Shown piece after piece: positions 2,866-59,900 of a stretch of 64,000 nt of DNA (positions within the stretch are counted from its first letter, which is position 1; every line of letters begins with the position of its first letter). The stretch lies in assembly GCF_003073045.1 (NCBI RefSeq), contig NC_037596.1, positions 12,459,950 to 12,523,949 on the forward strand, in the 5' to 3' direction. The stretch comes from Pomacea canaliculata. Lineage: Eukaryota > Mollusca > Gastropoda > Architaenioglossa > Ampullariidae. Below the pieces are notes generated by a model. That model did no database searches. It was given only the letters and a program-made list of their open reading frames with translations, and had not been told where the DNA came from. The position numbers and the translations under genes were made by a program.

Positions 2866-2882
2866 GCTGCTGGGGATTTTTG

Positions 2883-3935
2883 TATAAACGCTAAAGACAA
2901 TAAAAGAAGCATGTACACGCTCAACTGGTATAACATTTTATCGCTAAATAGCAAAAAAGATGGTCACAACATGGAGAGCTGATAAATCAGATGTTAGCTA
3001 TATTTCTGTAAATATTTCTGAATATACCTACAGTTTTTCTAAATTGAAACTGTAACATTAAGAAAAAATATGATAAAATCATTACCATAACTAGAAATAG
3101 TGACAGAAAAGTCACATTAAACACAGACAATACAGATAAGAGAATTTGAACAGACAGCTTGGAAATAGTAAATAAATGAACTACTTGAACGCTATAGTTA
3201 ATTCTGTAATGTTTAGTGCTTTAAATCATATGTATGTCATATTTGTGAGATTATTACTTTGTCTTTAGAGTGTCAAATGGCCCATGTATTTCAACAGTGC
3301 TTTAGAAAATAGACATGCTAATACTAGTCTGCATACCACTCTCTGTTTATGTGGTTCCATATGTGCTAAATCTATTAAGCGCCTTGCTTGAGCTGCTGTA
3401 GTAACAGGATTTTATAAATCTCATGTATATACTGCTGCTTTGGCATACTATTGCCTTAACTATTTGCTAGAATTGTGAAGCTCTTTATTTATGCTGTTGT
3501 AGTTCATGGTTTTTAAAATCTCATGCATATACTGCTGTTATGGCATACTATAATCAAAATTTTTTAAACCCTTATGAAAAGGATGTGATTATAAACAGAA
3601 TTGTGTATGTGTGTCATTATGTGATAACATTTACATCTAAGTTTAGTATTATATTTACATTTTTATATGTATATTATACCTAAATATTATCCGTGTAGCT
3701 GTTTTGAAATTTTTAACCAGTGTTTAATACATATTTTCTTGAAGTGGCATTTTTAGTCATTATGACAACAACAAATAAAAAGTCTTTTAAAGATGTCTAT
3801 ATTTTTGAAATATTCACATGTGTGTTTGTGTGTGTTTTAGTTCATTATCAACATAAATGTATAGATGTGTGCTTATATGCTAACATTCAAAATATTCACA
3901 TCAATACATCTGTGTTGGTGTTTTGTGTGGGTTTT
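2883..3935. repeat. Segmental duplication, copy 1 (partner 37062-37912)
   Basis: This 1-kb block matches 37062-37912 in the same orientation with many substitutions and small indels. Shared landmarks include TAACTAGAAATAGTGACAGA, GAACAGACAGCTTG, TAAGCGCCTTGCTTG and TTTGGCATACTAT in the same order. It is noncoding as far as I can see. Confidence 0.8.
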
Positions 3936-8210: not shown

Positions 8211-8372
8211 TTATTTTTTGTGATTTCGCGGAGGGACGATAGCAGTCATTGCGATGGTGGCATACTCTGTCTTCGTCTCCTGCTGGACGACGGGCTTGGC
8301 TGAACTCACGGCTGTGAAAACTAAGTCTCCATATATTAGTCCATTAGCATCTCTTTGACGGGAAGCCTTCTC
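8211..8372 (-). CDS. Receptor 1 exon 11: ITIM plus ITSM terminal exon
   Basis: A 162-base terminal exon in phase 0 after TTTAACAG. It encodes GLIYGDLVF (ITIM, consensus [ILVS]xYxx[ILV]; tyrosine codon 8331-8333) and, 23 residues later, TKTEYATIAM (ITSM, TxYxx[VI]; tyrosine codon 8262-8264). It ends RNHKK and TAA. The pair and its order resemble the tails of vertebrate Siglec and CD31-type receptors. Confidence 0.8.
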   Translation of the reverse strand, partial: EKASRQRDANGLIYGDLVFTAVSSAKPVVQQETKTEYATIAMTAIVPPRNHKK

Positions 8373-11300
8373 CTGTTAAATGAATAACAATGATGTGGAA
8401 TAACAATGATGGGAAATAGTTAAAACAATTCTGCTAATATTCTTTATTGTGAGAAAGCAAAGATCCTTTCACATCCATTTTCTCTCCATACATATAGATA
8501 GGCTTGCGAGTTAGGGGACTAGTGAATAAAGAAAATATTTTAGTAAAATCTTGACTAAGGCAAGCTAAGCACAACAAAGGTAATGCATTGTCCTAACTAC
8601 TTATACAGTGATTTAGCTTTTGCTTCTTCTAAAAAAATTGTAGAAGACTCAAGTCCATATGCTGATGTTCTGTGGTAAGCTAAAAGCACTGAAGCCTTTA
8701 ACTAACCAAAGACAGATTTTCTCAGTAATTTTCTCTTCCAGAGTTTTCCTGTCAAGCAATGGAAGACGAGGAAGTAAGAGGCTTACCATAGACTCTGCGG
8801 TTTCGGTTGTGTTATCAGTTTCATAAACAGGAGTAGTGCTGTCTGTAAAAGATTGGACAAACGTTTTTATTACTACTTAATTACAAATATTACGAAAGTC
8901 ATCAAAAATAAAAATCACTTGTTCTCACTTAAACATGAATGAGCTTAGGAATTTTTCTGGAAGATAATAGTGTGTGTGTGTGTGTGTGTGACAATCTAAA
9001 CTGTTTGAGAAACAAATGCAAATTTCAACCGTATTGCCCATTAATCTCAGACTAAGTATTAGTTAGCGAGTGTTATCGCACGGAAACACAGGCTTTCCTA
9101 GAAAATGTGAGAACATGAGGCGTTTGATTTGTCTAAATGCCAAGTACTATTCACAGATCAGTGATAAGGGAATTAGGAAAGTCAGTCCTTCGCAATCTGT
9201 TATCTTTCTCTCCATCTCTTTCACACACATTGCGTGCATATGCACGCCATCCAACCTGTCTGTCCTCTTGCCTAGACTACACAATATTTCTTTGTCTAGT
9301 TTATTTTTATATCTAAACATACCTACCATTCTTATGTTCCTGAGCACATCCCTACTTTGTTCCTACTTTGTTCCCTTATGTTGCTTACCTATCATGTTTG
9401 TATGTTCGAAGTTTGTTCCTACATTACATTGTCCATCCCTTTCTCATTGTTCCCGTCCTTTCATAAAAAATCATACATTCATCCATTCTCAGCTACTTAG
9501 CTCCACTGCCACTTTCTACTCTGTTGTAGTTAATTTTAACATCCTCTCATATTTCTAGGGTCATTAATATTATCTAATGTGTATTGATTTATATTAACCT
9601 TTGATTGCTCGATTCTTCTCCTCCTTGCGAACAGCACTTACAGAAGCATAAATGTCTCCTTTTACTCCCTCAGCACCTCCTGACAACGAAAACACGTTTA
9701 TTCGTTTTTGTAAAGTTTTGTCTTCCTCTTTTTGATTCAATCTTATGTATGTTGTATTTGGTAAGATCAGATAGCTATTTTTTTCAAGAGACATAACTAT
9801 GTGCATCTGCTCCAGATGAACCTCAATTAACTGGTCCTTTAAAAAAAACTAGAAAGCTGATGCAGTACAGATGAAAAAACTAAAATAAGGTGCTATTGAT
9901 TAAGTGCATTTAGCATATATCTTTATCTTTCTTCTTGTTTTTGTTTTTTGTAGCCATCTCTTTGTGTTCTTGCTATTTGCCGCTTGCCCTGCATCTTCTT
10001 TTATCTTTCTTACTTGCCTTACTTATTTAAGACAGCACCAGAGTACACATTCACCAGCACAACCAAAAATTCGAGACGTTAATCAGATTTCCCTGTGATA
10101 GCTTTTGAAGACATGGGCCATCGCATTCGAAGTGTTAACCTTTTTTCAGAAATGGGAGGACAAAGAAAGAGAGAGAGAAATAAAAAAGAAAGAGAAACAT
10201 ACCAGAGATGGACAAGAAATAGTATAAAAGGAAGAAAGCTGAAGAGAAAAGATTTTTACTTTGTTCTGTTTATAAAGTTTTTGTAATTTATTTTTTAAAT
10301 ATTACCTTTCTTCTGTTTTTTCTTGTTCTTGCAAACATCAGCGGATGTCAAGTAAGTCTGGCCATACGTTTCATGATCATAAGCTGATGAAAGATAAAAC
10401 ACACACACACACACACAATTTATAAGTAAGGGGATTTATTTGTTCTTTTCACAACAATAAACTGTATGATGTATGTAGCTACAACCAATTTTCTTTATAT
10501 GGAGGTGATACTAGACTTGAAACCATTGTCACAACAGTCAGCTATGAAAGGTCTTATGAAGCAATAATTCAAGAAAACGTTATGGAAGTCAAGAGAAAAT
10601 AAAGCCAGTGAGAGAAGTATGAGAGCTCACGAGAGTCTGACTGAGCGGAGCTCGTGTCGTCACGTGACCGCACGTGTTGAGCGCGTGGAGGGCGGGCTGG
10701 AGCCCTGGATGCTGTCAGGTGAAGAGAAAAGTCTCTGTTGGGAGGACAGAAGTTGTGGCTGACATCGTGTCTGATATTAGCTCCTCCAGTGGTCCCATAC
10801 ATGTCGTTCACGATCATCGCTTTGACAAAGAAAACAACTTTAAACAAAATTACTGACTGCATTTTTATTTCCATTAGATTGTCATCAAATTCTTTTTTCT
10901 TCCAAATCTCTGAAAAAATAATCAATCAACCACCCCTTCATCCATCTATCCATCCCTCCAAAGTAATCTCTGTTTACTAAGACTGCATTGTTTATTTGAT
11001 TTCAAATACTTACTTGCTCCTTCTGTGGTGTCGTTTGACTGTCTTCTTTCATCTGTAGGCCTATGAGTATATTTAAAGTAAGAGTTATTTGTTCAGTCAA
11101 GACATTATTTATTCCTGATCAGTAAGAAATAGTCTGTGGTATTGGTTGCTTGCTTGTCTATCCTATCTTACCGGAAGATTATTTTACCACAAGGACTATT
11201 CATTTATTATAAAAATAAGATGCTACAGGAAATCTGTGCTTAATATCTGGGCAGCTGATTTGCAAATTTAATTATTGTAGTTTTAAGTGTGAAACACATC

Positions 11301-14300
11301 TGTTCTTAATTACTTCAGAGTTAAAAACCAGAGAAATAATAAAACATTATCTCGATAGATCTCACATTATCATTCTTACACTGTTAATGAAAGTAAACAC
11401 GAATGACAGCAAATAGTTTAGAAAAGCTTTATCTACTAAAAATACAATAGAAAATAAAAAGAAAAGTGAACAGGTGAATGAAGGAGGCTCAACTCAAAAA
11501 GACAATTCTGCAAACCGAAGGGGGATAAAAAAAGGCAACCAGCCAGCTTAGAAGAAAAACTGGCAGTAAAAAGACATTTTAAATCTGTTACAAACAAATA
11601 GATTATATAAGGATAGGGACAACAACTATAAAGGGTTACCCATTAAGCAAAATTAGCGATGCTAAAACCTTTGAAGTTCACAACATGGGATTTCCATTTA
11701 AGGTAGCTCTGATGGCGCATTGAGAAAACTACTTGGCTGACAAAGTTCCAGAATGTTCAGAGACAGGAATGAGGAACAGTTACACAGTGTAGCTGTCGTG
11801 TAGTTAAACTTAACATCCAGTGTAGCTCTGTGAAAACTATGCAGTATGGCCAGGCTTCTGCTTGGGTTCTAAAAATTAGAACACAATGAAATTTCATTGA
11901 GATCAATCCCTTAACGGGACCTGCTCATTAGGGAAGGGAACAGAAGGGAATTAGTAGTTGACAAAGTTCTCTACAGTAGGTCTGCCATGGGAAACTATGT
12001 TTACCCTTTCACTTTCGCGAGCCACCTTTTCCCACTTTCCATCTCGCCATGGACTTACACCAAAGGTTTACTAAAGGATTGTCTAATTAAGACAATGTTG
12101 AGCCGGGATTAGCAAGGATCAGCGCTATCGCCATTTTCCAGATATTCAATGGGTCCCATCAGGAATTAAGACTGCTTCATGCATCTTTGTTGTTAGTCTT
12201 GTATTCCTGGAGAGATATTTAGAGCAGTTTCATTCTTTGACGACATCACGAGGTGTCCATATCTAGCACCCGTACAGAAAGTTGGGAACTGGAAGAAATT
12301 TCTACTGCAGATACTTGCTGGCCAAGATTACATGCTTTACATGCATTCTTCTCATTGCATGCTGTCGGATGTTTTATTTAACAACGTATGATTTGTAGGC
12401 AGCTGAAATCTCTAAATGAACATTGTCAAAACATGCAAAATACGTGTGTCGTCCATGTGCATTTGGTGTTCCTTCAACATGCAAAGCATTCGTTTTTATA
12501 GGAAATATGAAGAGAAGAGTTAATAAAATATTGCAAAATCAAGAAAGAGACAGAGTTTACAATAAAACCAACTTACCCAGTTGTTACTTCTGCACCATCA
12601 AATTTCAAGCCGCACCGAAAACATAATATCATTCAAAAATATCTTATGGATTTATACATTAAACTCCACTTAATATGGTCAGGAGAATTTTTAACTCAGT
12701 CGAATCAATGGTGGAAAAAGTGCACGGCAAATAGATAACATTTACGATGAATATTTCGATAAATCCAAACGATGATATAAGACGGTTTATTACTACTAAA
12801 TCTGTGGCAGGAAAATGAATATTTTATGCACACTCCAAATAACTCATTAGGCAGATGCGATTATCATTTAACCATGTGGAAATTATAGCCTCTACAAGTA
12901 TAAATAACAGACACAATGTATAACATAAGCATACCTTTCTGGGGTTCTTTGGTCGTTATTTTAATACGAACGACGACGATGGCAATAACTGCGGCAAGCA
13001 AGACACAACCACACGAGAGGACAATTGTTGTTAGTAAACCGACTGATTCGTCACTCTGGGCTGTCGTCTCAGATACTGATTCTTCATTCTGGGCTGTCGT
13101 CTCAGACACTGTAAATTAATTAAGGAAAGATTCTGGAATACATAGTCTATGTGTCGGTAAGCAAAACTGAAGCCATAAGAGTTTTTATGTTAACAAAGCA
13201 ATTACGGCTTGGTACTACATGACTATTGTACAAAGGTCCACAGTAATACTGCAAGTTTTCCATAGTACGCAGAGTAGTATTTAACATTTTCTAGCAAAGA
13301 TGTAGACCGATCTATATGGAATAAAATTTACACTGAATCCAAAATGTCGCTAGATATTCATTTTATAATGAGGAGCAAGATTCTCTTCAGATTATAAGGA
13401 TTTTTTAGTTTGTATACCAACAATCACCACCTGGACTTCACCAGATGGACATACCGAAAACTAGATGGATGACATCATCATTAATCGACAGTTTAGAAAG
13501 AGTCTGCTGGATGCCAGAGTGAGTGCAGGTGGAGATGCAGCCACAGACCCCACCTGTATGTGGCAACCATGAAGATAAAGCTAAGGTCTTTGTATAAGTC
13601 ATCAGACAGACCGCACCACAAATTCAACGTGCAGTTTCTTAGAGACCGTAGAAAGCAAGAGGAGTTCCTGCATAGTTAAAAACAGGTTTGCGACACTGGA
13701 AGGACTCCTGGAAGAAACGGTGGCTAACCACTGGTCAGGATTACAAGAAACGAGGAAGACTGCCTGCACACAAGTTCTGATTCAGAATGAAAAAAAGCAC
13801 AAGGAATGGCTGACTTTAAGGACCTGGTGAAAGATAGAGGAAAGAAAAGAGCTGAAGCAGAAGACCAACCAATATCAAGACCAGCATGAAAAAGAAGAGC
13901 TCAAAGCAAATGTACTAGGACAGGGGTGGGCAAACTTTTTTGTTGCGAGGGCCGCATCGCTGGGTCATGACTAGTCCGAGGGCCGCACCTTGTAATTGAA
14001 TACAAAACGACGTAAAATCGCCAAATTGTAAACAAACGCATTTATTTAATAATGAGCACATGAAATATGTAACACTGTAGGAACAAATATAAAACCAGAA
14101 TGAACAACTTAACACACACAATTTAATGAGAAAAATGTTTTTGAATACAATTTTGCTGAACAATTCTTTTAAAATAACGGAAATGATTGGCCAGCTGCCT
14201 TCTTTCCACTCTCACTTCCACAACTCAAAGGCCTTGTACCACTCAAAACTCCACTATTTATCCTGTCCCAGTCGAGCGTTCCAGAAACCGTCCTTTGTCT

Positions 14301-17300
14301 GTTCCCACATGGTTACGCAAACGTAGTCTCAACCATTATTTGCCCCCCTCCTCCACCCGTGGGACCAGACTTCCTAGTCTTGTTAAGTGTGTGTGTCCAC
14401 GTGTCGAGGGTAACTGTGTGTGGGTGTGAGCGCGCGCGTGTGCGTGTGCGTGTGCGTGCGTAAGTACGCTGCGACGGTTTGTGTGTGAAGGTGGGTACGC
14501 ACGCATACATCCCCCCTCCCGCACTGTCTGGTCATGACCTTCCTAAGTTGGTCAGGCCGCTTCGTAACTCAGGTGTAACACAGGGTCCACTGGCTACCGG
14601 CGAGACAGTTCAAGGCCGGCCATTACGTACGCAGCAGGCGTGGAAGGGACTAAGCGTAACTTGTTTTCGGTAATATTTTTTTTGTGTTGCCAAAGGACTT
14701 CTGCGGGCCGCAGAGAACCACTTGGCGGGCCGCATGCGGCCCGCGGGCCGCTATTTGCCCACCCCTGTACTAGGAGATGAACCGAGAAATGAAGAAGAAT
14801 GCAAGAGGCGACAAGAGACAGTTCGCACACAGGATGGCAGAAGAGACAGATGAAGCAGCTGCACAAAATAACACAAAGAAGATATACGAAATTACAAGAA
14901 TTCTGTCCGGAAAGAAAAGCACCAATGCGAGTAAGCCAGTACTGAATAAGAATGGCAGCGTCATTACCGATGATTCAGAACAAAGATCTCGCTGGGAGGA
15001 ACACTTTGAAGAAATATTTAACCAGCCACCACCAACACTCACTTTGGACTTTGCCCCAACCGCTGAGCAGCTACAAGTAAACACCAACCCACCAACCAAG
15101 GCAGAAATCATCAAAGTCATCAAGTCTTTGAATACTGACAGATGGCATTCATCCAGAGACATTCAAAGCAGACCCAACAGCCGCAGTGAAGATGCTACAC
15201 CCACTGCTTCAGAAACTTTGGGAACAGGAGCAAGTTCCAGTAGACTGGAAGCTTGTCTGTCTAATCAAGCTATCAAAAAAAGGCGACCTGACACAGTGCA
15301 GGGATTGGCGTGGGATTCCACTGTTGTCCATTTCCAGCAAGGTGCTGACCAGAATCATTCTCGAAAGGCTGATAAATGCCCTGGACAAGAAGTTACCTTG
15401 GCAGCATAGTCAGCAAAGATGGAGGTGCAGATGAATATGCAAGAAGACGAAGAAATAAATCCAAGCTTGTATTCCACACCCTGCGACCAATATGGAACTC
15501 CAAGACTTTATCTCTATACACCAAGATCCGCATCTTCAACGTTAATGTAAAGTCAGTCTTTCTATATGGATCTGAGACATGACGTGTGACAAACACCATC
15601 ACCAACAAGATACAGGCATTCGTCAACAGATGTCTGCGCCACATATCATCAGATGGCCCGAGAAGATCTCCAATACAAACCTGTGGGAGAGAGCCAACCA
15701 AAACCCTGCCAGTCAAGACATCAAGAATAGGAAGTGGGGCTGGATCGGTCACACCTTGCGCAAGCCAGCCAACAATTTATCGAGACAAGCTCTGGAGTGG
15801 AACCCACAGGGAAGGCGAAAGGTTGGGAGACCCAGACAGACATGGAGATCAGTCAACAGAGAGGTGGAGACAGCTGGCATGACGTGGTGCCAACTGGAAA
15901 GGGACGCCCAGAAACGGGTCCGATGGCGGGGTGTGGTTGCGGCCCTATGTTCCACTGGGAGCTATTATGAGCAAGAAGAAGAAAATACCAACACAAACAT
16001 AAGCACAACCAAAAAAACACTTTTTTCTATTTTCTGTTGTGTTTTCAATAAAGTAATACAACTTAGTTGTCATACGTACTAGAACAGGGATGCGCAACCT
16101 ACGGCCCGCGGGCCATATCCGACACGCGACGCGGTGCCATCCGGCCTGCGAAACTTTTGCCCACAGTGCAGGATATCGGCATGTTAGTCATAAAACAAGA
16201 CCTAAAAAAACGAGAAAAAACGGGAAGAAGAAGTATTTGTCCCTACGTAGGGGCGTCTCTCAATCTTTTTATCGATGGACGAACATTTCGATTCAGTGCT
16301 CCGACTTGGTGTCTCTACGATGCAGCCGGACATTCAGAGGTTGGTTTCGGGTAAACAACTTCAAATATCCCACTAATTAGTACATAATTAATGGTAAGTA
16401 CAACTTGTTTCTAATAAAAATGGTATATGATCTATTTTTTTTTTATTTCTGCGGTGAAGCGGCCAGCGACACACGTGCATGGCCCGCAGGCCGAAAAAGG
16501 TTGGGCATCACTGTACTAGAATATTCACCGATGTTCACTGTTGTAATGTCATAACCTATTTCATTGCCAAGAGTTATTTTCCAGCTTCCTTGGGTAATGT
16601 TTTCTTCCGGATGAAGCGTCAACACCAGATTAGGAGGCTGTCCACTCAGGTTGCAGTTCACCTTCGGTATGAATGTATCCTGTGACGGGGTCGATGTTAG
16701 GAAACATTCATTGAATATTGTTGTGTGTGCTTTTACACGAAATGTTACTTTCTCGAATTCTGAGGATAGAAGTGTGACAGGGCCGTCAACAAACTGAGGA
16801 GCACCTGCAAATATCAGGAACAAGAGTTATTCATAAAAAAAAACAGACTACCGAGTTGGCTATTAATTATATAAAACAGATATTTTATTATTGCATACAA
16901 ATGGAAAAATATAAACGTTTCAAGAGAATGTGTTCTTAAATAGATGCAAGTATCTTTACATCTTTGGATAAAATAAGTTTATCTTAAATTTGTCGAATAT
17001 CCATGACAATACCCAAAACAAACAATAGCCTTCACCACAACATAATCTGCCAGTTCCTGGGTTTGAGGTGTGAAGACGAGAAACAGTTTTTAAACATGAT
17101 CACACTAACACTCTCGTCAGAAAACGTCTAAGAACATGACTTCTTCTCCCTTTTTCATAGTGAAACATACATATATATAGTACGCAAACCTCCTGGGAAC
17201 AAAATTCAAATAAAAACATATGATTTTCCACAGATCATCACATTCACCAGACAAAAATATGTACAAAAACACATTTGACAGGTCAGGTTAAAAAAACATA

Positions 17301-20300
17301 TGTCAAGAGAAGAAAGATATTGAGTTGGAGAACGGATGATGTTCTCCATGCCCTCTGATGATGGTCTGCTACTTCTGGCGAGGAGCTGAAGGATCTCTAA
17401 AGCAACAAGACAGAGACACGAAGTTAATTCGAAAAGAAAATATGTTTGTCCTTGTCCTATCCCCTTGTCTGCTGATAACCTCCACGAATCAAATAATGCA
17501 GCTTCCATACCTAATATCATAGACTTTAAAGTTTTTGTATCTACCACGTAACCTAATTTATACACACAGACTACATAGTCGTCTACTCACATCTCACAAG
17601 AAAGGACACCGATCCATTTCTTTCCGACCCGTTTCCTTCGCAACGAACTGTCGGCCAGTCTTCTTGACACCTGACTGACAGCGAAACCTTCAGATGCTCT
17701 TCACCACTCTGAGTTGGCATTGTGGTTTTGTTCACTTTATTAACAATTTCCATTCCATTTTTGTCTAAGAGACTGAAGACAGCAGGAGGATTTCCTCTGT
17801 TAAAAGAGCAGCAGACGTCGACTTCACCCTCTTTAATGAGATGAGTACTGTTCACTTCTTGTCCGTCTACTGTCAGATTTGTGACTTTGGATGGGTCTGT
17901 ATACGGGTAAAAGCAAAAATGTACATATAAATATATTCCTATTCCTTTATTAATGCATTTACTTTTTAAAAAATTCAATAATAATTTCATCTACTAAAAC
18001 AATCTGATAACTATGTCAACCTTAAAATGTCTGGAAAAGCCATTGACTTTGACATATCTCACCAGTTTATGTCATTCACTGACTATATTTCCACCCTACG
18101 TATCATCATTGAGTTTATTGAGTGGCAATCCTCTCTTTATATAACTTATTTGAAATTTGACAGTGTAGTCACGGACGTCATTTGGAGGCTGTTTATCCAC
18201 TATGGCATTCCTCATAAGCTTATGAACATTATCCAGGAGTTGTACAAAGACTCTCCTAAGACGTTATCCACTACCACAAACTTTAAACCTTTCCTAATGA
18301 AGACAGGGTTGCATATTATCAACAACAATTTTCCTGGTGGTCATAGACTAGATTATGCGCAAGACAACCCAAGACAGCAACACCAGTATCCAGTGGACCT
18401 TCACCGAACAGCTAGAGGACCTGGACTTTGCAGAAGTCATTAGTCTCCTATCTTATCGGCAACAACATGCACAAACCAAACTGAGTAGGCTAACAGAGGA
18501 AGCAGAGAAGACTGGCTTAAAGGTCAACAAAAAGAAAACCGAAGCGATGAGAATCAACAGCAATCAGGAACTCCCAATCCAACTTCAAGTAGAGAGCATC
18601 CTGGAAACAAACTGCTTCACGTATCTGGGGAGCATTGTCGTCAACGACGGTGGAGCGGATGATAACATCAAAAGCCAGACATGCATTTAACAGCCTACGC
18701 GTCATCTGGAACTCCCGAACATTATCCTTCATCAGTAAGACCCGCATCTTTAACACCAATGTGAAGGCAGTCCTACTGTATTGCTCTGAAACCTGCAGAG
18801 TGACAAATACTGTCAACAACAAGCTCCAGACCTTTACCAACCGATGGCTACGCCATATTCTGGGAATAAGATGGCCTGAAAAGATCTCCTACAGCAGCCT
18901 GTAGAAAAGATCCAGCTAGAATGCTACTAACCAAAACATCAAAAAGTGCAAATGGAGCTGGATAGGACACACCCTGCGCAAACCACCTGACACCATTGCC
19001 AGGCAGGCACTTGACTGGAATCCTCAGAGGAAGAGGAGAGTTGGGAGACCAAAGCAGACTTGGAAAAGTACAGTAGAGAGCGAGGCAAAGGATACCGGAA
19101 CCGCACGGGCCCAACTGAGGGGGGCTGCCCTGTACCGGGTCGACGAGGTGTTGTTGCGACCCTATGCTCTTCGGGGAGCATCAGGGAAAAAGCTAAACTA
19201 AACTTGATCTATCTGTTAATATCTTGATTTCTTAAATATATTAATGTTTTAAATAATATATTAAAACCTATAATTTATTTGAAATGGTGTGTACATTTAC
19301 ACTGATGATTTGTAATCACACCATAAAAACAGCAAGTTTAACAGCGTATTCGTTTATGACCTTGTGGCTTATAACAGTCAGAGTTGTCCGAAACAGTAAA
19401 AAAAATATATTTATAGTCATAGTAAAATGTGTTGTTACGAAAATAACCTTTCATTTTATATATTTATTTTATTTTTAGTTTGACTCTTTCTGAATGCTTA
19501 TTTAACTTTCAATCCTTATACTTCAGAGAAATATTAGAAGATGTAGTTTATGCCGTTCGTCAGGCATAAATAAATTTTTTTATGCACCATTAATACTTTC
19601 TTTTTGTCAGAAACGTCAGTTGTATACTTCAGTGTATTTTTGCACCTGATATAATTTATTAGCAGGCCTTCGGAGGATTTGCTTTCTATTTGTCCCTTAA
19701 TTGTAGGCATGACCGTGTCACAGCCATGCAGCCATGCAGATTACCCATAATGGCTCAACTTCTAGTGGTTTCATTTTTTCAGGGAATTTTCGTGTATCAT
19801 GTTTTTTTGTGTTATTGTTGTTGTTGTTGTTATAGAAGAAGCGCATCAACATGTAGCTTCAAGCAGTCTTAGCAACAATAACGAACAAAAGTACAAAGAG
19901 CGATATGTTACCTTTGTTAACTCTGGTTACTTACATGTCACATCAATGGGTATCAGCAACACTGTCTGTCTCTGTAGTGTTTTATCCTGAATGTAGAGAT
20001 ATATAGCAGTGATGGACCGAGTGAGCAGCTGTGAAATCTTTATCTCCCAGGTCCTCATGGAGCTGGTGAAGTAGCGACGCTCTGCTACACACAGTGTGTC
20101 ATCTCCGACATCATTATTTTGCACAGTGAATTCCTGATACTGCGGTGGCCTTACAAACGTGCACAGAAGTGATCTGTTGTTATTTTTGCACACGTCAACA
20201 TAGAGACGTGTTGTGTCTGTAGATACTGAGTTTTCACTAACTTTTAGAAGATAAGTAATATTTAAAAAACGGCCTTCTTTTTGAGATAATATTTCACTGA

Positions 20301-20735
20301 CGTTCACCTTTCCACCTGAAAATACAGACATAATCGTATTTACAGACATATACAGTCATATGCCGACTAGTTTTTACTTATATGTATGGGTGCTCAATAC
20401 AAAAAGAAACCGAAAGGGTTATTCTTACACAAACTCTTTCTATAACCGTCTCTAGAACAACGATTTTATTTTTTAAATTTTTTGCAAATCATTTTTTCTT
20501 ACTTTTAGCTTACTATTGTTTACATTTACAGGTTTCAGTGTTAATAAAGTAAATGTTTGCAACATATATATATATATGATGTTATGCGTAGATGTGCACA
20601 CAAATAAACAGTTCATCTTTATTACAAAAAATTGTGTTACTCACTTGAATCACAAGAAGGAAACACCAGCTTGTGTAAACTAAATAGTAGTAGAAAAGAG
20701 AAAAATTGGAATGCTGTCTCCATGGCGATACACAT
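8211..20735 (-). CDS. Receptor 1: Ig-like transmembrane receptor with ITIM and ITSM, 11 exons
   Basis: Joined minus-strand exons: 20735-20645, 20315-19935, 17896-17591, 16804-16529, 13108-12935, 11052-11014, 10819-10631, 10383-10306, 9679-9599, 8842-8787 and 8372-8211. All borders have GT/AG. Introns 1-9 are phase 1 and the last is phase 0. The sum is 1833 nt, predicting 610 residues with no internal stop. Order: signal peptide (1 to about 26), Ig-like 1 (about 31-157), Ig-like 2 (158-259), Ig-like 3 (260-351), stalk with an 11-residue tandem repeat, membrane helix (about 375-398), and a 210-residue tail. The tail has an SH3-type PxxPxR motif, repeated tyrosine motifs, ITIM LIYGDL (Y571) and ITSM TEYATI (Y594). 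In vertebrates such pairs recruit SH2 phosphatases; that role here is inferred. Introns 2 and 4 carry transposons. I do not know a named orthologue. Receptor 2 has the same exon plan, which supports the model. Confidence 0.8.
8787..8842 (-). CDS. Receptor 1 exon 10: 56-base tail exon
   Basis: It enters in phase 1 and leaves in phase 0 at ATG then GTAAGC. It encodes DSTTPVYETDNTTETAESM. The receptor 2 exon 54776-54831 has the same length and phases. Confidence 0.7.
8970..8990. repeat. (TG)n microsatellite
   Basis: About ten TG units in the intron between receptor 1 exons 9 and 10. Confidence 0.85.
9599..9679 (-). CDS. Receptor 1 exon 9: tyrosine-repeat exon
   Basis: An 81-base phase-1 exon after TTGTCAG. 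It encodes GDIYASVSAVRKEEKNRAIK. The donor is GTTAAT, weaker than the others. Y-x-x-V (YASV) could bind SH2 domains. It is homologous in layout to exon 8. Confidence 0.7.
10306..10383 (-). CDS. Receptor 1 exon 8: tyrosine-repeat exon
   Basis: A 78-base phase-1 exon after TTTCATCAG. It encodes YDHETYGQTYLTSADV followed by a lysine-rich end (KNKKKQKK). It pairs with exon 9 and with receptor 2 exons 55683-55763 and 55471-55548 as members of one duplicated exon type: aromatic Y, small residues, then a basic tail. Confidence 0.75.
10631..10819 (-). CDS. Receptor 1 exon 7: tail with tyrosine and SH3-ligand motif
   Basis: A 189-base phase-1 exon, the same length as receptor 2 exon 56232-56420. It encodes MIVNDMYGTTGG and later PARPPRAQH. 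The PARPPR core is identical in receptor 2 and fits the class II SH3 ligand pattern PxxPxR. The exon ends TCTC then GTGAGC, also as in receptor 2. Confidence 0.75.
11014..11052 (-). CDS. Receptor 1 exon 6: 39-base tail exon
   Basis: Between CTACAG and GTAAGT, phase 1 on both sides, encoding DERRQSNDTTEGA. The receptor 2 partner (56691-56735) has the same position and phase and a similar RGSNDNRRGS core, which supports a real micro-exon. Confidence 0.7.
11053..12934. other. Receptor 1 intron 5, no element recognised
   Basis: This intron is 1.9 kb long. Its middle part (about 11640-12200) is more GC-rich and partly self-similar (the phrase TGACAAAGTTC recurs), hinting at an old insertion. I could not find ends, a coding frame or target duplications. 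Confidence 0.3.
12935..13108 (-). CDS. Receptor 1 exon 5: stalk and membrane helix
   Basis: A 174-base phase-1 exon. The stalk is an 11-residue unit in tandem (VSETTAQNEES then VSETTAQSDES). A 24-residue helix follows (GLLTTIVLSCGCVLLAAVIA, then IVVV), with a basic stop-transfer stretch RIK. The helix holds no charged residue, so pairing with an adaptor through a buried charge is not suggested. Confidence 0.85.
13425..16015 (+). mobile_element. LINE A: decayed RTE/CR1-type non-LTR element, split by a hAT insertion
   Basis: It lies antisense in receptor 1 intron 4. The first part (13425-13920) matches the end of an endonuclease domain (SPDGHTENQMDDIIINRQFR in one frame). After the hAT insertion, 14776-15405 encodes the pre-RT region (NTKKIYEITRILSGK and later VPVDWKLVCLIKLSKKGD). 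At about 15405 the frame jumps to LGSIVSKDGGADEY, so the catalytic RT core is missing through an internal deletion. The end (15407-15960) carries the C-terminal signature: KIRIFNVNVKSVFLYGSET, WGWIGHTLRKP and GRRKVGRPRQTW. Several frame breaks show it is dead. The clade is not certain. Confidence 0.8.
13921..14767. mobile_element. hAT-type nonautonomous element 1, 847 bp, 8-bp target duplication
   Basis: The ends are inverted: CAGGGGTGGGCAAA at the left, and its reverse complement TTTGCCCACCCCTG at the right. The 8-bp duplication TACTAGGA flanks both sides exactly (13913-13920 and 14768-14775). The subterminal DNA is rich in GGGCCGC. The interior has a GT/GC-alternating tract (about 14380-14465) and no transposase. 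It sits inside LINE A, so it is younger than that element. Confidence 0.9.
16085..16513. mobile_element. hAT-type nonautonomous element 2, 429 bp, 8-bp target duplication
   Basis: The left end is CAGGGATGCGCAACCT; the right end, reverse-complemented, is CAGTGATGCCCAACCT. The exact 8-bp duplication TACTAGAA lies at 16077-16084 and 16514-16521. The subterminal GC-rich ACGGCCCGCGGGCC resembles element 1 in style but not in sequence. The right edge is 16 bases into receptor 1 intron 4. Confidence 0.9.
16529..16804 (-). CDS. Receptor 1 exon 4: Ig-like domain 3
   Basis: A 276-base phase-1 exon after a TTTGCAG acceptor. It begins APQFVDGP, contains VNCNLSGQPPNLVLTL and GSWKITLGNE, and ends at donor GTGAAT. 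The receptor 2 partner (60132-60422) shares PQFVD, the CxLxGxPP strand and the W-x-x-T-L strand. A hAT element begins 16 bases into the following intron, very close to the donor. Confidence 0.8.
17591..17896 (-). CDS. Receptor 1 exon 3: Ig-like domain 2
   Basis: A 306-base phase-1 exon. It encodes KVTNLTVDGQEV, an acidic strand ending VDVCCSF, a GNPPAVFSLLDKNG turn typical of Ig domains, then SVRCQEDWPTVRCEGNGS with the second cysteine pair. It ends VRC across the splice. Its receptor 2 partner is 61098-61370. This is the most Ig-typical of the three domains. Confidence 0.85.
18020..19200 (+). mobile_element. LINE B: second copy of the LINE A family, decayed
   Basis: It lies antisense in receptor 1 intron 2. 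The start (about 18050-18300) encodes an RT segment (FDSVVTDVIWRLFIHYGIPH, then KLMNIIQELYKD). A further RT part around 18420 reads LDFAEVISLLSYRQQH, where the catalytic [FY]ADD motif has become FAEV. The C-terminal signature follows (CFTYLGSIVVNDGG, WSWIGHTLRKPPDT and GRPKQTW). Frame breaks and an internal deletion near 18350 are visible. The C-terminal third aligns with LINE A. Confidence 0.8.
19935..20315 (-). CDS. Receptor 1 exon 2: Ig-like domain 1
   Basis: A 381-base exon between a TTTTCAG acceptor and GTAAGT donor, phase 1 on both sides. It encodes a divergent domain with cysteines in VDVCKNN, SLLCTF and DDTLCVAE and several N-glycosylation sequons. The copy-3 exon at 42119-42499 has exactly the same length. 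Its C-terminal half is nearly identical while the N-terminal half differs at many residues. The domain lacks a classical YxC motif, so Ig-like is a cautious label. Confidence 0.85.
20565..20578. repeat. (AT)n microsatellite
   Basis: A short AT run within receptor 1 intron 1. Confidence 0.6.
20645..20735 (-). CDS. Receptor 1 exon 1: signal peptide
   Basis: The start is the first of two in-frame ATGs (20735; the second is at 20723). The protein begins MCIAMETAFQFFSFLLLFSL, a short N-region followed by a hydrophobic core. The exon ends at a GTGAGT donor in phase 1. The copy-3 signal exon (42917-42839) aligns from the first Met, supporting this start. Confidence 0.8.
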
Positions 20736-22515: not shown

Positions 22516-22620
22516 ATATTTCAGAAATGAGTGGCGAAACGTCTCTGAAATTTCTAATTCCCGAGAGTTCATGCCAGAAAGCTTTTGAAGTCTGGGCCCT
22601 GTTTGCTAATGAAACAAAAG
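22516..22620 (+). CDS. Plus-strand gene: ectodomain exon a
   Basis: After TTTTACAG, phase 1 in, ending AAAAG then GTAATT in phase 1. It encodes EMSGETSLKFLIPESSCQK followed by AFEVWALFANETK. Confidence 0.6.
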
Positions 22621-40267: not shown

Positions 40268-40479
40268 TTGTAGTCTTGGGGAGGTGGAAGATGTTGGTGG
40301 CTTTGATGTCGGCGTGCTGTGTTGTGTTGTGATGCTGATGGTCGTCGTGGACGAACTCTAGGTTGTATAAAACTCCGTCTGCGTACATCAGTCGTCAGCA
40401 TTCCTACCACATGATGGAGTATCCTGTAAAATAAATAATAAATAACATAATTCATCATCATAAAAACCAATCTCTCTTA

Positions 40480-42118: not shown

Positions 42119-42499
42119 ATGTCACATCAATGGGTATCTGCAGCACTGTCTGTCTGTGTAGACTTTTATCCTGAATTTCGAGATATATAGCAGTGATGGA
42201 CCGAGTGAGCAGCTGTGAAATCTTTATCTCCCAGGTCCTCATGGAGCTGGTGAAGTAGCGACGCTCCGCTACACACAGTGTGTCATCTCTGACATTACTA
42301 TATAGCACAGTGAAGTCATGAGACTGCTTTGGCCTTATTAAATTGCACAGAAATGATCTGTTGTTATTATGGCACACTTCAACATCGAGATGTGTTGTGT
42401 CTGTAGATACTGAATTTTCGCTAATATTAAGAAGATAACTAATATTTAAAAAACTGCCTTCTTTTTGAGATAATATTTCACTGACGTTTACATTTCCAT
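42119..42499 (-). CDS. Receptor 3 Ig1 exon, intact
   Basis: 381 bases, open throughout, with TTTTCAG acceptor and GTAAGT donor, phase 1. From DDTLCVAERRYFTSSMRTWE to the donor it differs from receptor 1 at only four residues. Upstream of that it differs at roughly one residue in three, around VEVCHNNNRSFLCNLIRP. Confidence 0.8.
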
Positions 42500-42838: not shown

Positions 42839-42917
42839 AAGGAAATGTTTGATTGAATACATTCACTAGTATTAGAAAATAGCACACTTGAAGAAATGTC
42901 TCCATACTTAGGCTCAT
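42839..42917 (-). CDS. Receptor 3 signal-peptide exon
   Basis: Encodes MSLSMETFLQVCYFLILVNV and ends FP followed by GTAAAT in phase 1. It aligns without gaps with the receptor 1 exon (METxxQ, FLxL, FP at the same positions). The donor differs in sequence from receptor 1 (GTGAGT) and the exon is 12 bases shorter. Confidence 0.65.
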
Positions 42918-46829: not shown

Positions 46830-47291
46830 CTGCAAAAAAATTCATTGGAGGATTAATAGTAATGTTTTAACTCCATGATGTTTAAGCATGGTCTATTAAT
46901 GTTATCCCTTACAGTAAATGTTATGTTACACTTTAATATGTAATGTTTGCAGAGTCAAAGCAGTTCTTAAAAGATAAAGCAAAATAAAGGAACTCAGTTG
47001 ATTGATCTCATTGTTCAGATTGTTTCAAATGCCTTCATGTTTTGTATTCTCAGATTGAACAACTTGATACTTAAGTTAATTTTACAAAATCCACGTTATT
47101 ATTCATAAGTATTATTATCACTATAGTTTCTTTTAAATAACTTGACTTTGCCCTGCATGTAGGAAATAGATGAAGAATAGTGTCCACACTGCCTCTCCAT
47201 CATTTTCAGCACCTGTAGGAAATAACACAAAAACAATAATTTACAAGAGGCGACGTAAAGAACACTAAGCTCTTTTTGAAAGGAAACGAAA

Positions 47292-53713: not shown

Positions 53714-53903
53714 TTACTCTTTCTTTGGTCTGTTTATTTTCTGTTTGTAGCTTCGGGGTTGGGGGACGATGGCGGTGCTTTTGATGTCGGCGTATTCAGT
53801 TTTTGTTGTGGAGCCGATGATGTCCTTGGGCGAACTTGTGGTTGTAAAGTCTAGGTCTCCGTAAATTAGTCCATCAGCGTTTCTACTTCCGGATGGCTTC
53901 TCC
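53714..53903 (-). CDS. Receptor 2 terminal exon with ITIM/ITSM and a one-base frame offset
   Basis: After GTAACAG it begins GAGAAGCC like receptor 1, then an extra A in the run at 53880-53883 shifts the frame. Beyond it the open frame reads ADGLIYGDLDF (tyrosine codon 53861-53863) and TKTEYADIKS (tyrosine codon 53792-53794), ending at TAA 53714-53716. Conserved motifs behind a frame offset suggest a recent event or an assembly error in a short homopolymer. Confidence 0.75.
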
Positions 53904-56900
53904 TGTTACACGAATAATAAACCAAATAATTCGTTATCGTAAAATCCATATTTCTCTCTCCTAACTGAATAACAATGGTTGAATCTACAAAAAAGAGACG
54001 AAGCACATATATTTGTCGTAGTGATAAGTACCTAAATTAATACAAATAGATGTATGCCCGATGTAAGGGAATGCATGCGTGAAGAAGTGAAGGTGTGAGC
54101 GAGGATAAGTAAATATTGGGTAAGTAGACGTATAAATCTTGAGTGAAACTGAGTAAAAACAGTCTCGTGCTCATAAATAATCCACCACTACATTTACAAT
54201 TTTCGTCACAGTTCAATCGTCAATGAACTCAATGAACTAACTAATATTTATTGGAGACTTCGTGTTATTCTATTCTCACTCTGTTGTTTTACAGTAAGTG
54301 GAATGTGCTGTGGTCCTTAACCACGAGAGGGTCAATTATGGGAGTAGTATCTTTTGGACTCATTGCCAATGCCAGCGTCCTTTCCCATTTCAAGAAATCC
54401 CTATTTTGAGATACATTTAGGGGTTTTCACTTGATGTCACGTATTCTCAGAAATACTAATTCTCTGTTACATATAAATCAAGATACTTGAAGAGCACTCC
54501 TAATGTTCTGCAGAAAATTTCGCTCACAAGGAAGTTAAATATTCTTTCAATTCTTGCAGCAAGATGAGATGAGTGAGTCACTGTTTCAATTTTGTGAGAG
54601 TAAAGGTTAAAGTCCAAGTAGTGTCATGATGGCGGCTTTGACAACGATTTCGAAATTAAACGAACGTTACAACTTCAAGGTTAGGGATGTTAACCCTGAC
54701 CAAAAGTCCTGATAGAAAGCTAATCATGCTGAGACCTCATAATCCCATCCGCAATGGAATTCACTGCATGCTCACCAGTAACATCGTTGTTTGGGCTTCA
54801 TCGCTGACTTTGGCTAGAGGTGCCTTGCATTCTGCAAAACATTAAAATAAATACTGAAATATATATTATAATACAACAAGCATCACTTAAATAATTCCTC
54901 TACTTCTACAAATGTTTTCGGCCAATCTAGAAGGACATATCTATATTCCGTATTTATTTATTATTTACTGGCCATGTCAGGTTCGATCGTTAGCATTTTC
55001 AAACACAGCTATGAACAGAAAGAAGAATGAAGACAATGATGATGTTGATGATGATGACATTGATGTGTCGTTTTATTACATACAAAATAGCGAATACACT
55101 CTTAACTTAAAGCCCTCATTGGCCATGATCCTAGTCTAAGTACAGATTAACTAAAGTGTTAACTCTAGGAAATATTTCCCGGTTCCTTCTTTAAATCAAG
55201 CTTTGAGTTGATGGCAAGTGCAAGTGGCTGTTGCACAGAACAGACTCTTATTTCACAGAAGAAAAGAAGAAAGTTGTTCACCATGAAGCCGTTATTCAAA
55301 AGTCAACTATGTCCCTACTGTCTTTCTGTCAACCCGTCTGTGTTACCTCGTCCGCCAGCACACTGCTTCATTCATTCATTTTCCCGCTCACTCGCACGTG
55401 CACCCGTCCATCCGTCTTTTTTTCTTTTTTATTGGCTCTGACATTATTCGCTGTAATATTTGACACTGACCTTTTTTTGCTCTCTTCTTTTCTTTGCGAA
55501 CGTCTCTTGCCGAAACATAGGTGTCGCCCCGTGAGTCATCAGCTCCAACTGACAACCAAAAAGAGTTTTTGTTATTGTAATTTTATATGTTACCTTATAG
55601 ATTGGTAAATTTGGAAAATCAGACTTAAAGTTTGTCAAGTTTAATACAAAGTTTGAAATGAACATTGTTCTGTTTGTCTCACCTTGTTTTTTCAATCGTT
55701 TTTTCTCTCGAACCTCAGGTGCAGACACGTAGGTATTCTCTTCTGCTCCCAATGATGCGTTACCTGAGTAACAGCAAAACGTTCCCATGAAATCCGACCA
55801 TGCTTTTGTCATTGTCAACAAAGAATTTCTTTACTGCTACTATAACCCCTGTCTTAAGTTTTTTTTCCCTTTGTCTGTGTCTTTTCCCTTCCACACATGC
55901 TTTTATCCACGGCATCACGTATCTTTGTGGCTTAATGAAGACATGTCACAATTGCTAATAAAAGAAAGGCCAAACACAACAGAGGTATGTCAAAGAAAGC
56001 AAGGGCACTGTGGCTTAACGTAGACATGTTCATTACTTTTTTCCTACCAACAACAAAGGCGATAAAGGAGGACCAGCTATGATTATTATCTATATTCTTT
56101 TTATAGATGTAAGGCTTAAAAAACAATTTTTCTTCCAAGATATCCTATGCATTCATTTGAAAGTTACATCAAACTGATTCATTAAAGTCCTACTGAAGCC
56201 AGAGTAAAATAAAGGTCCTATGATAGCTCACGAGAAACATGATGAACATCAGCAGCAGTGACTCGTGTCTGCGCGTGCTGTGAGCGTGGAGGGCGAGCTG
56301 GCATCTCCGACATGGTCAGTGGAGGAAGAGGGTCTCGGGTGGGAGGACTACACGTGTGGATGGCGTGGTTGTTGTTGTTAACAGCTCCACTCGTTTCATA
56401 CACATCATTGACAATCATACCTACAAAGAAAAGAAAATGTCTGTATTAAAAGAATAAATATCCCGCAGACTGAAAAAAAGCCTTAATGACGATTGTAGCC
56501 TTGTAAGATTAGTTCTCTTCAAAAAGAGCGTGGGAGTTAGAGAACATAATTCTACTTCTTTCTTGGAACTCTTTTTTTTTTCTTTTTTTTTCGTTTTCTT
56601 TAAGAAAGCAAAACAAAAAATGAAGTTTAAAAAATGGACTAATTTAATGTAATAAAGATAGAACTAATAATATAGTTTATAATCACTTACTTGCACAACT
56701 TCCTCGTCGATTATCATTCGATCCACGGTTTCCAACTGTATGTCTACAGTTTGATTAAAAAATATTGTATGTTCAAAGAGTACAAATATACCTATTGCTT
56801 TTAATCAAAAAAATATAAGGCTTTTATTCTGGTAATTGAAGATTTATAGATGAACTGTAAATTTTGTTTTTAATATTAATATTAGTAATTAAGCAAAGAT

Positions 56901-59900
56901 GTCTACAACTTTGAATGACATTTAACAAAGACATTTACAAACTTTTTATGTAATCTTAATCAGATTAAAAAGCATTTTATTGAATTCCGTTCAGGATGCC
57001 ATCTTTTTCCATAATAATAATATTAGTACTCAAAACTGATAATCAGCACATTACTCTGTATACTATGTGTATTTATGATGTGTACTCCATCTATAAATAA
57101 ATCTTCGTGATCATTTTTATAATTCCCAGTTCACAAGCATGTGGGTTTCGAATACATGTGAACCCAGCAATAATATTAAAAGATTAGTTATGGCATAACG
57201 CGTTTTTCAGTTGTCTTTCCCCGTGAGTACAAGAGGAAGGAAGCACCTCATGCTCATTAAGGTGTTACGCATGCGTGGAAAATGACAATATTGCGTGAAT
57301 GTCCGAAGGAAATCGATAAAAGTCTTTTAAAAGATTTAAGTGAGATGGAGATACTTTACAGAAACTCGTTTTACAAACCTTATAAACAAATCAAGACGGT
57401 CAGTCGAATCATAGTGACTTTACCTAGGGGATAGTGCGCTAGGGATGATCTACCTGTCCACGTGTACCTGTCCAGCCAGACAATGGGCAAGCAAGAAAGT
57501 CATGCAGCAGATAGAAGCTATCGGGAACATTCATTAATTCAGCAATCATTCAAGTAAGTCCTTATGTCGTGAATGAGTGTATGAAGTCATAAAAAATACA
57601 AACCTATTTGTCTCCACTGATCCTGTTGGCCACATTGGAAACACAAACGCAAAGCAATATCAGAATAAAACTAAACACAATCAGGTCTCTTAATCGACAA
57701 ACAATTTATACATGAAATTAAATTATCTACTAAAGATCTGAGAACAAGAGCAGTACAATTGTAAATAATGTCGAACAGTCAAAGATCATACAATAATCCC
57801 AAAATAAAATACCTTTATAGGGCCTTTCTACCATATGTCTTTATGCAAAAGGCAGATAACTCCACACCCTCCTCCTCGAGCTTCATTGGTTGCATTGATT
57901 ACAATATTGCCCCACTATACTGCCATCGTCTTCACGGTCTTGCCCCAAAAATACCTTGGCAAGTAATGACTAATCGAGTCTACTAGTGTTTCCTTCCTCT
58001 GTGTGCCACCCATCAGACGGGAGAAATTCATCGACAGCTAGTTTCATCCTCAGGCCCCATGCTCGGACTTGTTTTTCTCTGTCTCTTCGAACTGTGCTTA
58101 CATCAAAAGCCTTCAAATTCAGTCTCGAATTTTTTTTTAAAAGAAAAACCTTGCAAAATTGGGCGTACAATTCTGATTATTCCTCGACTCTTCATATACT
58201 CACTCTTTATGGTCTCATCTGTCTGCTAAAGATTAAGTTTATTGTAGAGCTGACTGTGGGTTTGTTTATAGCTTTTTGTGTTTATCGCTTTGATGTTATA
58301 TCCGGGTGAATAAATTCCCTTTACACATCCAATCATAATTAGTAATTTTACAACGAATGAACTAAGAGTAGAAAGAAAACAAGCACGTAGCCGCCTTCAG
58401 AAAAATCATTGCTTTAAAAATGTTTTTTTCTTGTATCTTAGCCTGAAGGAATAATAGATGTGAGCTTAATATGTTTATAACAGCAGGCGGCTAATAGTTT
58501 TAGGAAGACTGGATTCTATATTCCATCCTTACGATCAATCATTAAGACTGCAACATCTTGTAGATCGAAACCTATTTCTATTGGTTTTCTCTTAAAGAGT
58601 GAAAAAAATTTCTTCTTTCTTCTAGGGTGGAGCTAGTGACCGGTGACCCAACGAAGCCAATGAAATTAAATTAGAAAACTTCCTAGATATAACACAACAT
58701 AAATCAGAACAGCTCAGGGAAGAGTTAGGCAATCACTGGCCACACATGCACACATGCACATCTAAGTGAACCACTAAAGGTAATTATCATCTATCAACCG
58801 GACACAAAGTAATTTTTTTCTATTCCTCATCTTATGACCTTTAATCAGTCTAAAGGTCTTGGGTATAGTACTCTTGGTTTAACCAGACCTAAGTCCATGC
58901 AGCTAATGAAGGATCAAGGAACAAATGAAACCTGTTATTGGGATGAAATGGTTTCTGGTTTTTCTAAATTAATGAGGTAAGTAGTTATTATCTAAACTCG
59001 AATCCAAAAATATGTTAATCATTGTTCGTGTGGGTGAAAACTTTAGAGTAACGCTTCTCACTGCAAGTGTTATTATGGAAAAAAGTACTTAGTAGTTATA
59101 AATAGACGTTTTGAACACGTGATAAACAATCTTCTGTACAGTTAGCATTTGTGAAAGTGGTAAGCTATTTTTAAGATAATATCTGTCAATTTCGTCTTTG
59201 CCATTGTCATCGTCGTTAGCGTCATCATCACCACAAAATCAATCATATGTAGTAGTTTAACACCATTAATAACGGTTTAGACGTGTATTACATATAGTAG
59301 TTCTGTGTAATCAATGTGACTAGAATCCAAAAAAATAAAGAAATACCCGAGTTTCACCATCTGGTAAATTGGACTGTGTTACTTTTTGGAAAAAAATATT
59401 ATTGAAATCTAGACACAAATAATATCGCGATGTTTATAGAGAAAGAGAGAGACAGCAATAACTTTTTTTCCTACCACTACTTTTAAAAAGTCTTACCATA
59501 TCTCTTCTCTGTGACCTTTTTAATTGCAAGAGAACTAGCAACAGCGATCAAAACAACAGCAGCCACAATGCCGCACACGAGTATGATGTTGATTGTCTTC
59601 CATAAAGTTAATGCTGGCGATTGCTCTGGCGCTGAAACAACAAAATAATTATATTTCCTAATGTGTACATTCTTCGTGTACATTGTCATAGCTTACAAAT
59701 AGGTTTTATTCAATGTTCATACATCACACTATTTTATGCTAATGTGATCGTCGCGTTAAGTATTAAGAACATTTTTCTTTAGAAAATTACAGTACATATA
59801 AAAATAAAGCTTTTATCATCTTTCAAAAGAGTGTATACGCACACGTGTGATTTAATTTTGCATTGAGGGTTTTTTTTATATAGCATTGCTCAAGTACCAT

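Follow-up and report, generated by a model that had tools for sequence, protein, structure and literature searches.

Paired ITIM and ITSM motifs in the tails of two clustered mollusc receptor genes: candidates for phosphatase-docking Ig-like receptors

Does a mollusc possess Ig-like receptors whose cytoplasmic tail could dock a phosphatase, as do the tails of vertebrate inhibitory receptors? The question arises from a preliminary description of the stretch of DNA analysed here (64 kb in all, hereafter the window), which had reported a multi-copy receptor family with an ITIM followed by an ITSM at the end of the protein. We found the minus strand to carry two receptor genes in co-linear arrangement, along with remnants of a third copy, and the family is indeed multi-copy in that more than one copy is present in the window (two intact, one broken). 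By analogy with vertebrate receptors we lean towards the view that the two intact genes encode type I Ig-like receptors that would dock a phosphatase of the SHP2/Corkscrew class, probably via both motifs, with an inhibitory output. The evidence for this view, and for the alternatives, is given below.

Gene models and ectodomain of the two receptors

Receptor 1 extends from 20723 to 8211 on the minus strand, with 11 exons encoding 606 amino acids. Receptor 2 extends from 64000 to 53714 on the same strand, with 10 visible exons encoding 540 amino acids, its 5' end lying outside the window. Both models were built by hand and checked by script: splice sites were set by eye, guided by the homology between receptor 1 and receptor 2, and were afterwards verified by script. 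All 19 modelled introns are of the GT-AG type (10/10 in receptor 1 and 9/9 in receptor 2), no internal stop was found by the script check in either model, and the intron phases match in both genes, all being phase 1 except for the last intron, which is phase 0. The exons follow the order leader, Ig1, Ig2, Ig3, transmembrane exon and six small cytoplasmic exons.

Receptor 1:
20645..20723 (-): exon 1, start codon and hydrophobic signal-peptide-like leader METAFQFFSFLLLFSLHKLVFPS, the signal peptide being judged by eye
19935..20315 (-): exon 2, Ig1, N-terminal Ig-like domain (AlphaFold and PDB fold matches)
17591..17896 (-): exon 3, Ig2 (weak Ig profile matches)
16529..16804 (-): exon 4, Ig3 (AlphaFold and PDB fold matches)
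12935..13108 (-): exon 5, stalk and transmembrane helix
11014..11052 (-): exon 6, cytoplasmic C1; its receptor 2 counterpart is at the same place and in the same phase
10631..10819 (-): exon 7, cytoplasmic C2, with the VND[MV]Y tyrosine and PARPPR (PxxPxR)
10306..10383 (-): exon 8, cytoplasmic C3, with TYLTSADV
9599..9679 (-): exon 9, cytoplasmic C4, with GDIYASVSAV
8787..8842 (-): exon 10, cytoplasmic C5, with PVYETD, whose tyrosine is absent from receptor 2
8211..8372 (-): exon 11, LIYGDLVF (ITIM) and TEYATI (ITSM), stop codon included

Receptor 2:
63715..64000 (-): Ig1, truncated by the window edge
61098..61370 (-): Ig2
60132..60422 (-): Ig3
59497..59631 (-): transmembrane exon
56691..56735 (-): cytoplasmic C1
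56232..56420 (-): cytoplasmic C2, with VNDVY and PARPPR
55683..55763 (-): cytoplasmic C3, with NTYVSAPEV
55471..55548 (-): cytoplasmic C4, with GDTYVSARDV
54776..54831 (-): cytoplasmic C5, without tyrosine
53714..53902 (-): last exon, LIYGDLDF and TEYADIK

The donor of C2 in receptor 1 was inferred from the GTGAGC common to both receptors; read-through of this donor would lead to a protein that terminates without the last-exon motifs. Each receptor has a single strongly hydrophobic segment (Kyte-Doolittle peak of 3.12 in receptor 1 and 2.99 in receptor 2), and basic residues come after this segment in each. The best reading of these sequences is that both proteins would be single-pass type I receptors, with the motifs on the inner side of the membrane.

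The two genes differ strongly at synonymous sites. Comparison of receptor 1 with receptor 2 gave a dS of 1.35 and a dN/dS of 0.41 for the Ig exons, a dS of 1.24 and a dN/dS of 0.36 for the tail exons, and a dS of 1.14 with a dN of 0.33 for the last exon. By these estimates the receptors are old paralogues, whose synonymous sites appear near saturation. The dN/dS values at such high dS, together with two long stop-free spliced frames and the uniformly canonical introns, argue against the explanation that the family is in decay, with tail motifs that are mere relics and genes that no longer yield a functional protein. The broken third copy and the retroelement-like fragments within receptor 1 introns would fit such decay, which we nevertheless consider extremely unlikely for the two receptors.

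Assignment of the ectodomain was approached with profiles and models. Neither full receptor gave a Pfam match above cut-off, the best being a sub-threshold match of PF17736 on receptor 1 Ig2 (19.5 bits for a cut-off of 26, E 0.0011), and when five single Ig exons were compared with Pfam a sub-threshold Ig match was obtained for receptor 1 Ig2 only. Profile searches against PDB gave weak matches for Ig2, 9 of the 11 being Ig proteins, Dscam and SYG-2 included (best E 0.018), and likewise for Ig3, whose three matches were all titin (best E 0.15); the Ig1 profile had no match in PDB, and the Ig2 and Ig3 profiles did not match one another. AlphaFold models of Ig1 and Ig3 were built on alignments as shallow as 3 and 2 sequences, respectively, and are of modest confidence. 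The best Ig1 model was all-beta, with a pLDDT of 74.8 (63.4, 51.0, 34.9 and 33.5 for the other four), while the best Ig3 model, of pLDDT 68.7, was mainly beta. Antibody-complex entries, followed by butyrophilin and beta-2-microglobulin, were the top PDB matches of the Ig1 model (best E 9.3e-4, TM about 0.5, rmsd about 5), the matched chain being inferred in several of them from the entry title. Those of the Ig3 model were basigin, titin, NCAM and Dscam (best E 1.4e-3). Taken together, the weak profile matches and the Ig1 and Ig3 models make three Ig-like domains per ectodomain the best reading, although not a proven one. Of the architecture proposed in the preliminary description, the receptor layout and the membrane helix are thus retained, whereas the three Ig-like domains went undetected by Pfam and are suggested by weak profiles and models.

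The presence of NCAM, Dscam and titin among the Ig3 fold matches, and of Dscam and SYG-2 among the weak Ig2 profile matches, would also fit a non-immune adhesion or recognition receptor (neural, gamete or epithelial). In such a receptor SHP2/Corkscrew would act as a positive Ras/MAPK arm, in line with the report that SHP2 raises Ras/MAPK signalling (PMC10231330). We regard this explanation as unlikely: three copies within 64 kb, one of them decayed, are reminiscent of immune-type gene clusters, as is the lower conservation at the N-terminus (Ig1 of the two receptors is 27% identical over 95 codons, Ig2 58%), both points being matters of resemblance.

The ITIM-ITSM pair of the last exon and its known counterparts

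The last exon of receptor 1 corresponds exactly to 8372-8211 on the minus strand, stop included, with the acceptor TTCATTTAACAG, and its product is EKASRQRDANGLIYGDLVFTAVSSAKPVVQQETKTEYATIAMTAIVPPRNHKK followed by the stop. It carries LIYGDLVF and then TEYATIAM, while that of receptor 2 (53902-53714) carries LIYGDLDF and then TEYADIK, and the distance from tyrosine to tyrosine is 23 residues in both. The ITIM pattern is [ILVS]xYxx[ILV] and the ITSM pattern is TxYxx[VI]; LIYGDL of both receptors fits the former, and TEYATI (receptor 1) and TEYADI (receptor 2) fit the latter. The terminal exon of receptor 1, the 23-residue interval and the occurrence of the same ordered pair in receptor 2, as described earlier, are therefore confirmed by the gene models, and both tyrosines and their +3 residues are conserved in the two intact copies.

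We estimated how often such a pair arises by chance. When each tail was shuffled 20,000 times, an ITIM with an ITSM 15-40 residues after it (tyrosine to tyrosine) appeared in 0.155% of the shuffles for receptor 1 and in 0.165% for receptor 2. A loose pair pattern was found at 4 places in the raw six-frame translation of the 64 kb, two of which are the receptor tails, and the motif alone is therefore unconvincing without gene models and conservation. Conservation was measured over the 47 last-exon residues that align without gaps, where the core motif residues are identical at 11 of 12 positions, compared to 18 of 35 for the others. When nine- and eight-residue motif windows were used, 14/17 positions were identical inside and 18/36 outside (Fisher one-sided p = 0.023), a figure that stands for a single comparison of one gene pair, with two intact tails, and not for a survey. 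In neutral simulations (20,000 runs each) both motifs were kept in 3.0% of the runs when 26% of sites had changed, in 0.275% at 40% and in 0.005% at 59%.

Outside the last exon the tail is rich in other candidate signalling sites. It contains 8 tyrosines in receptor 1 and 7 in receptor 2, of which only the last-exon pair fits the ITIM and ITSM patterns, so that six tyrosines of receptor 1 and five of receptor 2 fit neither. VND[MV]Y and PARPPR are kept in C2 of both receptors, PxxPxR being an SH3-type pattern. C3 and C4 look alike, each with one tyrosine and a basic run, and the C5 tyrosine of receptor 1 is not retained in receptor 2. Inspection by eye of the list of tail tyrosines revealed no ITAM pair.

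Among vertebrate receptors, the tail resembles those of the CD33-related Siglecs (-6, -7 and -9), in which a proximal ITIM is followed by a distal motif (TEYSEI in Siglec-9, TEYSEIK in Siglec-6). Human Siglec-7 has Y437 and Y460, with a distal NEYSEI, and Siglec-9 has Y433 and Y456, the tyrosines being 23 residues apart in both (PMC7226588). The preliminary comparison with a Siglec tail agrees with the spacing, and receptors 1 and 2, at 23 residues, lie within the reported Siglec tail spacing of about 20-23. They differ from Siglec-7, whose distal motif lacks the Thr, from Siglec-6, whose spacing is 20, and from Siglecs generally in that their tail is split over six small exons and has extra tyrosines.

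As a family label, however, the name Siglec found no support in sequence relation. Comparison of receptor 1 with PDB sequences gave a histone as the sole match at E<=10, with no Siglec; none was present among the 11 Ig2 and 3 Ig3 profile matches in PDB, and the Ig1 profile again contributed nothing. Siglec structures are present in PDB.

A similar order is seen in PD-1, where ITIM Y223 and ITSM Y248 engage SHP-2 and only Y248 is indispensable (PMC7078208); compared on motifs alone, it differs from the receptors described here by a spacing of 25 rather than 23.

Inhibitory Ig receptors are, to judge by the literature cited in one review (PMC11999971), already in print for molluscs, so that the novelty earlier suggested for the system is not supported. 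Both IgIT of the oyster Crassostrea gigas (Sun 2020, J Immunol, PMID 32989090) and CgIgIT2 (Yan 2023, Dev Comp Immunol, PMID 37044269) are inhibitory according to the titles cited there. The text of the same review gives CgIgIT2 five Ig domains and has it act through ERK by way of an ITAM, an account that sits awkwardly with the inhibitory title of its source. These oyster proteins are mollusc Ig-domain membrane receptors signalling by tyrosine motifs, as receptors 1 and 2 would be, and CgIgIT2 is set apart, by description only, by its five Ig domains versus the three Ig-like exons of receptor 1. Another mollusc Ig protein with inhibitory activity, and a Siglec by name, is the oyster CgSiglec-1, which has two I-set domains (PMC5877582) rather than three Ig-like ones.

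Further afield, ITIMs are reported in Botryllus fester co-receptors and in Hydractinia allorecognition genes (PMC12065747), and Hydractinia Alr proteins have Ig domains (PMC11999971). Both are invertebrate multigene Ig-type receptors with ITIMs, as here, but those loci serve allorecognition, and the Botryllus co-receptors (FcoRs) have a sushi domain between Ig domains. No sushi family appeared among the Pfam matches of our two receptors at E<=10, a search in which filters drop most weak matches. Relative to CgIgIT2 as described, what distinguishes the present receptors is the number of Ig-like domains and the ITIM-ITSM pair with its spacing. No description of this receptor family was found among the open-access titles and abstract openings listed, which is weak evidence.

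A proposed phosphatase-docking mechanism

From the gene models, motifs, spacing and conservation observed here we argue, by analogy, to phosphorylation, phosphatase docking, inhibition and an immune role. Upon ligand binding, a Src-type kinase would phosphorylate both tyrosines of the last exon. The ITIM (LIYGDLxF) and the ITSM (TEYAxI), 23 residues apart, would then recruit a phosphatase of the SHP2/Corkscrew class, most likely with one motif for each of its two SH2 domains, and the recruited phosphatase would damp activation in the manner of CD33-related Siglecs and PD-1. The upstream tail exons, with their extra tyrosines and SH3-type PxxPxR site, would probably serve adaptors or kinases.

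Several published observations are consistent with such docking. The N-terminal SH2 domain of SHP2 is reported to have an unusual requirement for a hydrophobic residue at pY-2 and, in peptides from IRS1 and PD-1, to bind the Phe at pY+5 (PMC7337045). In both receptors the ITIM tyrosine is accompanied by Leu at -2 and +3 and by Phe at +5; the residues at -2 and +5 match these reported features and fit docking of the SHP2 type. SHP2 is activated by two linked phosphopeptides, whose orientation and spacing are critical (PMC10231330). In flies the ITIM of Draper-II is bound by Corkscrew, and the pathway therefore exists in a protostome (PMC9008705). For Siglec-6, inhibition survives either single tyrosine change and is nearly all gone with both; SHP-1 binding is lost in the double mutant, while SHP-2 binding depends on the proximal ITIM (PMC9652399). 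Because of these data and those on PD-1 (PMC7078208), two-site docking is not the sole possible mode.

The same motifs could also support the opposite output. SH2 adaptors (SAP-like, Grb2-like or of the PI3K type) might bind the ITSM and the other tyrosines, and SH3 kinases the PxxPxR site, making of these proteins a switch or activating receptor comparable to the SLAM family, in which ITSMs can recruit SAP and EAT-2 for activation (PMC7226588). Retention in both receptors of VND[MV]Y, of the TY/IY tyrosines of C3 and C4 and of PARPPR would fit that case, and oyster CgIgIT2 is itself said to act through ERK (review, PMC11999971). On the other hand, the best-conserved stretch of the last exon holds the ITIM with its Leu at -2 and Phe at +5, an SHP2-type site, and the tail tyrosines include, by eye, no ITAM pair. 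We therefore judge an activating role fairly unlikely, although by no means negligible. A further point against an inhibitory output is that SHP2 promotes Ras/MAPK signalling in other settings (PMC10231330).

Should the tail dock an SHP-type phosphatase, as we favour, an invertebrate would have reached, or kept, the two-tyrosine geometry of the vertebrate immune brake, and would carry it on an ectodomain without detectable Siglec relation. The age of ITIM-ITSM checkpoint signalling relative to that of adaptive immunity would then become testable, with a defined peptide pair and spacing.

A broken third copy and the neighbouring sequence

The remnants of the third copy, all on the minus strand, comprise three pieces.

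42839..42905 (-): copy 3 leader exon, open
42119..42499 (-): open Ig1 exon of copy 3, which agrees with receptor 1 Ig1 at 343/381 bases (90%)
40268..40477 (-): copy 3 last-exon relic, with an early stop before the motifs and the ITSM Tyr codon changed to His

When receptor 1 exons were used in tblastn, no Ig2, Ig3 or transmembrane exon of copy 3 was detected. In the frame set by the conserved phase-0 acceptor, the last-exon relic reaches a stop after 11 codons, ahead of the motifs; one of the other frames has stops, and one is open but encodes neither motif. The DNA alignment of the relic showed that the ITIM tyrosine codon is kept while the ITSM tyrosine codon has become CAC (His). In this copy, loss of the reading frame thus goes together with decay of the ITSM, which speaks for the docking reading of the intact copies.

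The likeness of copy 3 to receptor 1 is unevenly distributed. The intron flanks of the two Ig1 exons (40-300 bases on each side) resemble each other within the range of 30 random window pairs, and the leader exons, which agree at 47 of 65 aligned bases, are no more alike as DNA than random pairs, although 41% identical as protein. This confinement of the likeness to the Ig1 exon suggests, from sequence, gene conversion or exon transfer. Comparing Ig1 of receptor 1 with that of copy 3, we counted 30 nonsynonymous and 7 synonymous changes (dN/dS 1.35), with 16.5 nonsynonymous versus 0.5 synonymous in codons 40-75, a segment chosen post hoc. Positive selection on Ig1 was considered but is not claimed, Fisher tests being non-significant for codons 20-75 (p = 0.45) as well as for codons 40-75 (p = 0.11).

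With Ig1 exons 90% identical and flanks and leaders at random level, the cluster can also be read as a mollusc family comparable in its working to the vertebrate KIR and Siglec systems. A conserved phosphatase-docking ITIM-ITSM tail would be combined with a fast-changing N-terminal Ig-like domain, and truncated copies such as copy 3 would act as gene-conversion donors or alternative first exons diversifying that domain; we consider this extended reading rather improbable. A decayed neighbour with a common Ig1 exon would also offer a case of receptor birth, death and diversification within 64 kb.

Relatives outside the window were sought with the Ig2 alignment. In viral contigs 63 pattern matches were obtained, none of which was confirmed, and in prokaryote genome contigs 34, with one confirmed locus in a Pirellulaceae MAG. 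This 28-residue match was dismissed as chance, its frame being overlapped by a longer ORF of 695 aa. Comparison of the tail exon with PDB returned a putative carbohydrate binding protein and the hypothetical protein PA1324 (E 0.37 and 0.53), likewise taken as chance. Rfam had no match within the 64-kb window.

A generic scan of both strands for Ig-like and membrane exons recovered only the Ig2 and transmembrane exons of receptor 1, together with two plus-strand candidates inside the receptor 2 locus, which were judged implausible. The scan overlooked most modelled exons and hence does not exclude further genes. Just upstream of receptor 1, in divergent orientation, open stretches with splice-like ends at 22517-22620 and about 23491-23679 (+) are jointly cysteine-rich and Ig-like by eye, with no Pfam match. 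A segment resembling a membrane helix occurs at about 35023-35230 (+), with a tail that is rich in proline and threonine and devoid of tyrosines; it is situated in an 84% direct repeat, and an apparently degenerate copy of it lies near 34120-34310. This segment could be the end of another receptor gene; its ORF had no Pfam match.

Repeated sequences are scattered over the window. The introns of receptor 1 contain retroelement-like fragments at 14774-16082 and 18352-19201 (+), which are in part 68% alike; one intronic fragment gave a weak reverse transcriptase match below the Pfam cut-off, and two others gave none. Direct repeats of about 0.9 kb (89%) and about 1.2 kb (69%) occupy 47291-49081 and 50048-53039, between copy 3 and receptor 2, and the stretches 2876-3460 and 37056-37675 are copies of a dispersed repeat, about 0.6 kb long, with 75% identity.
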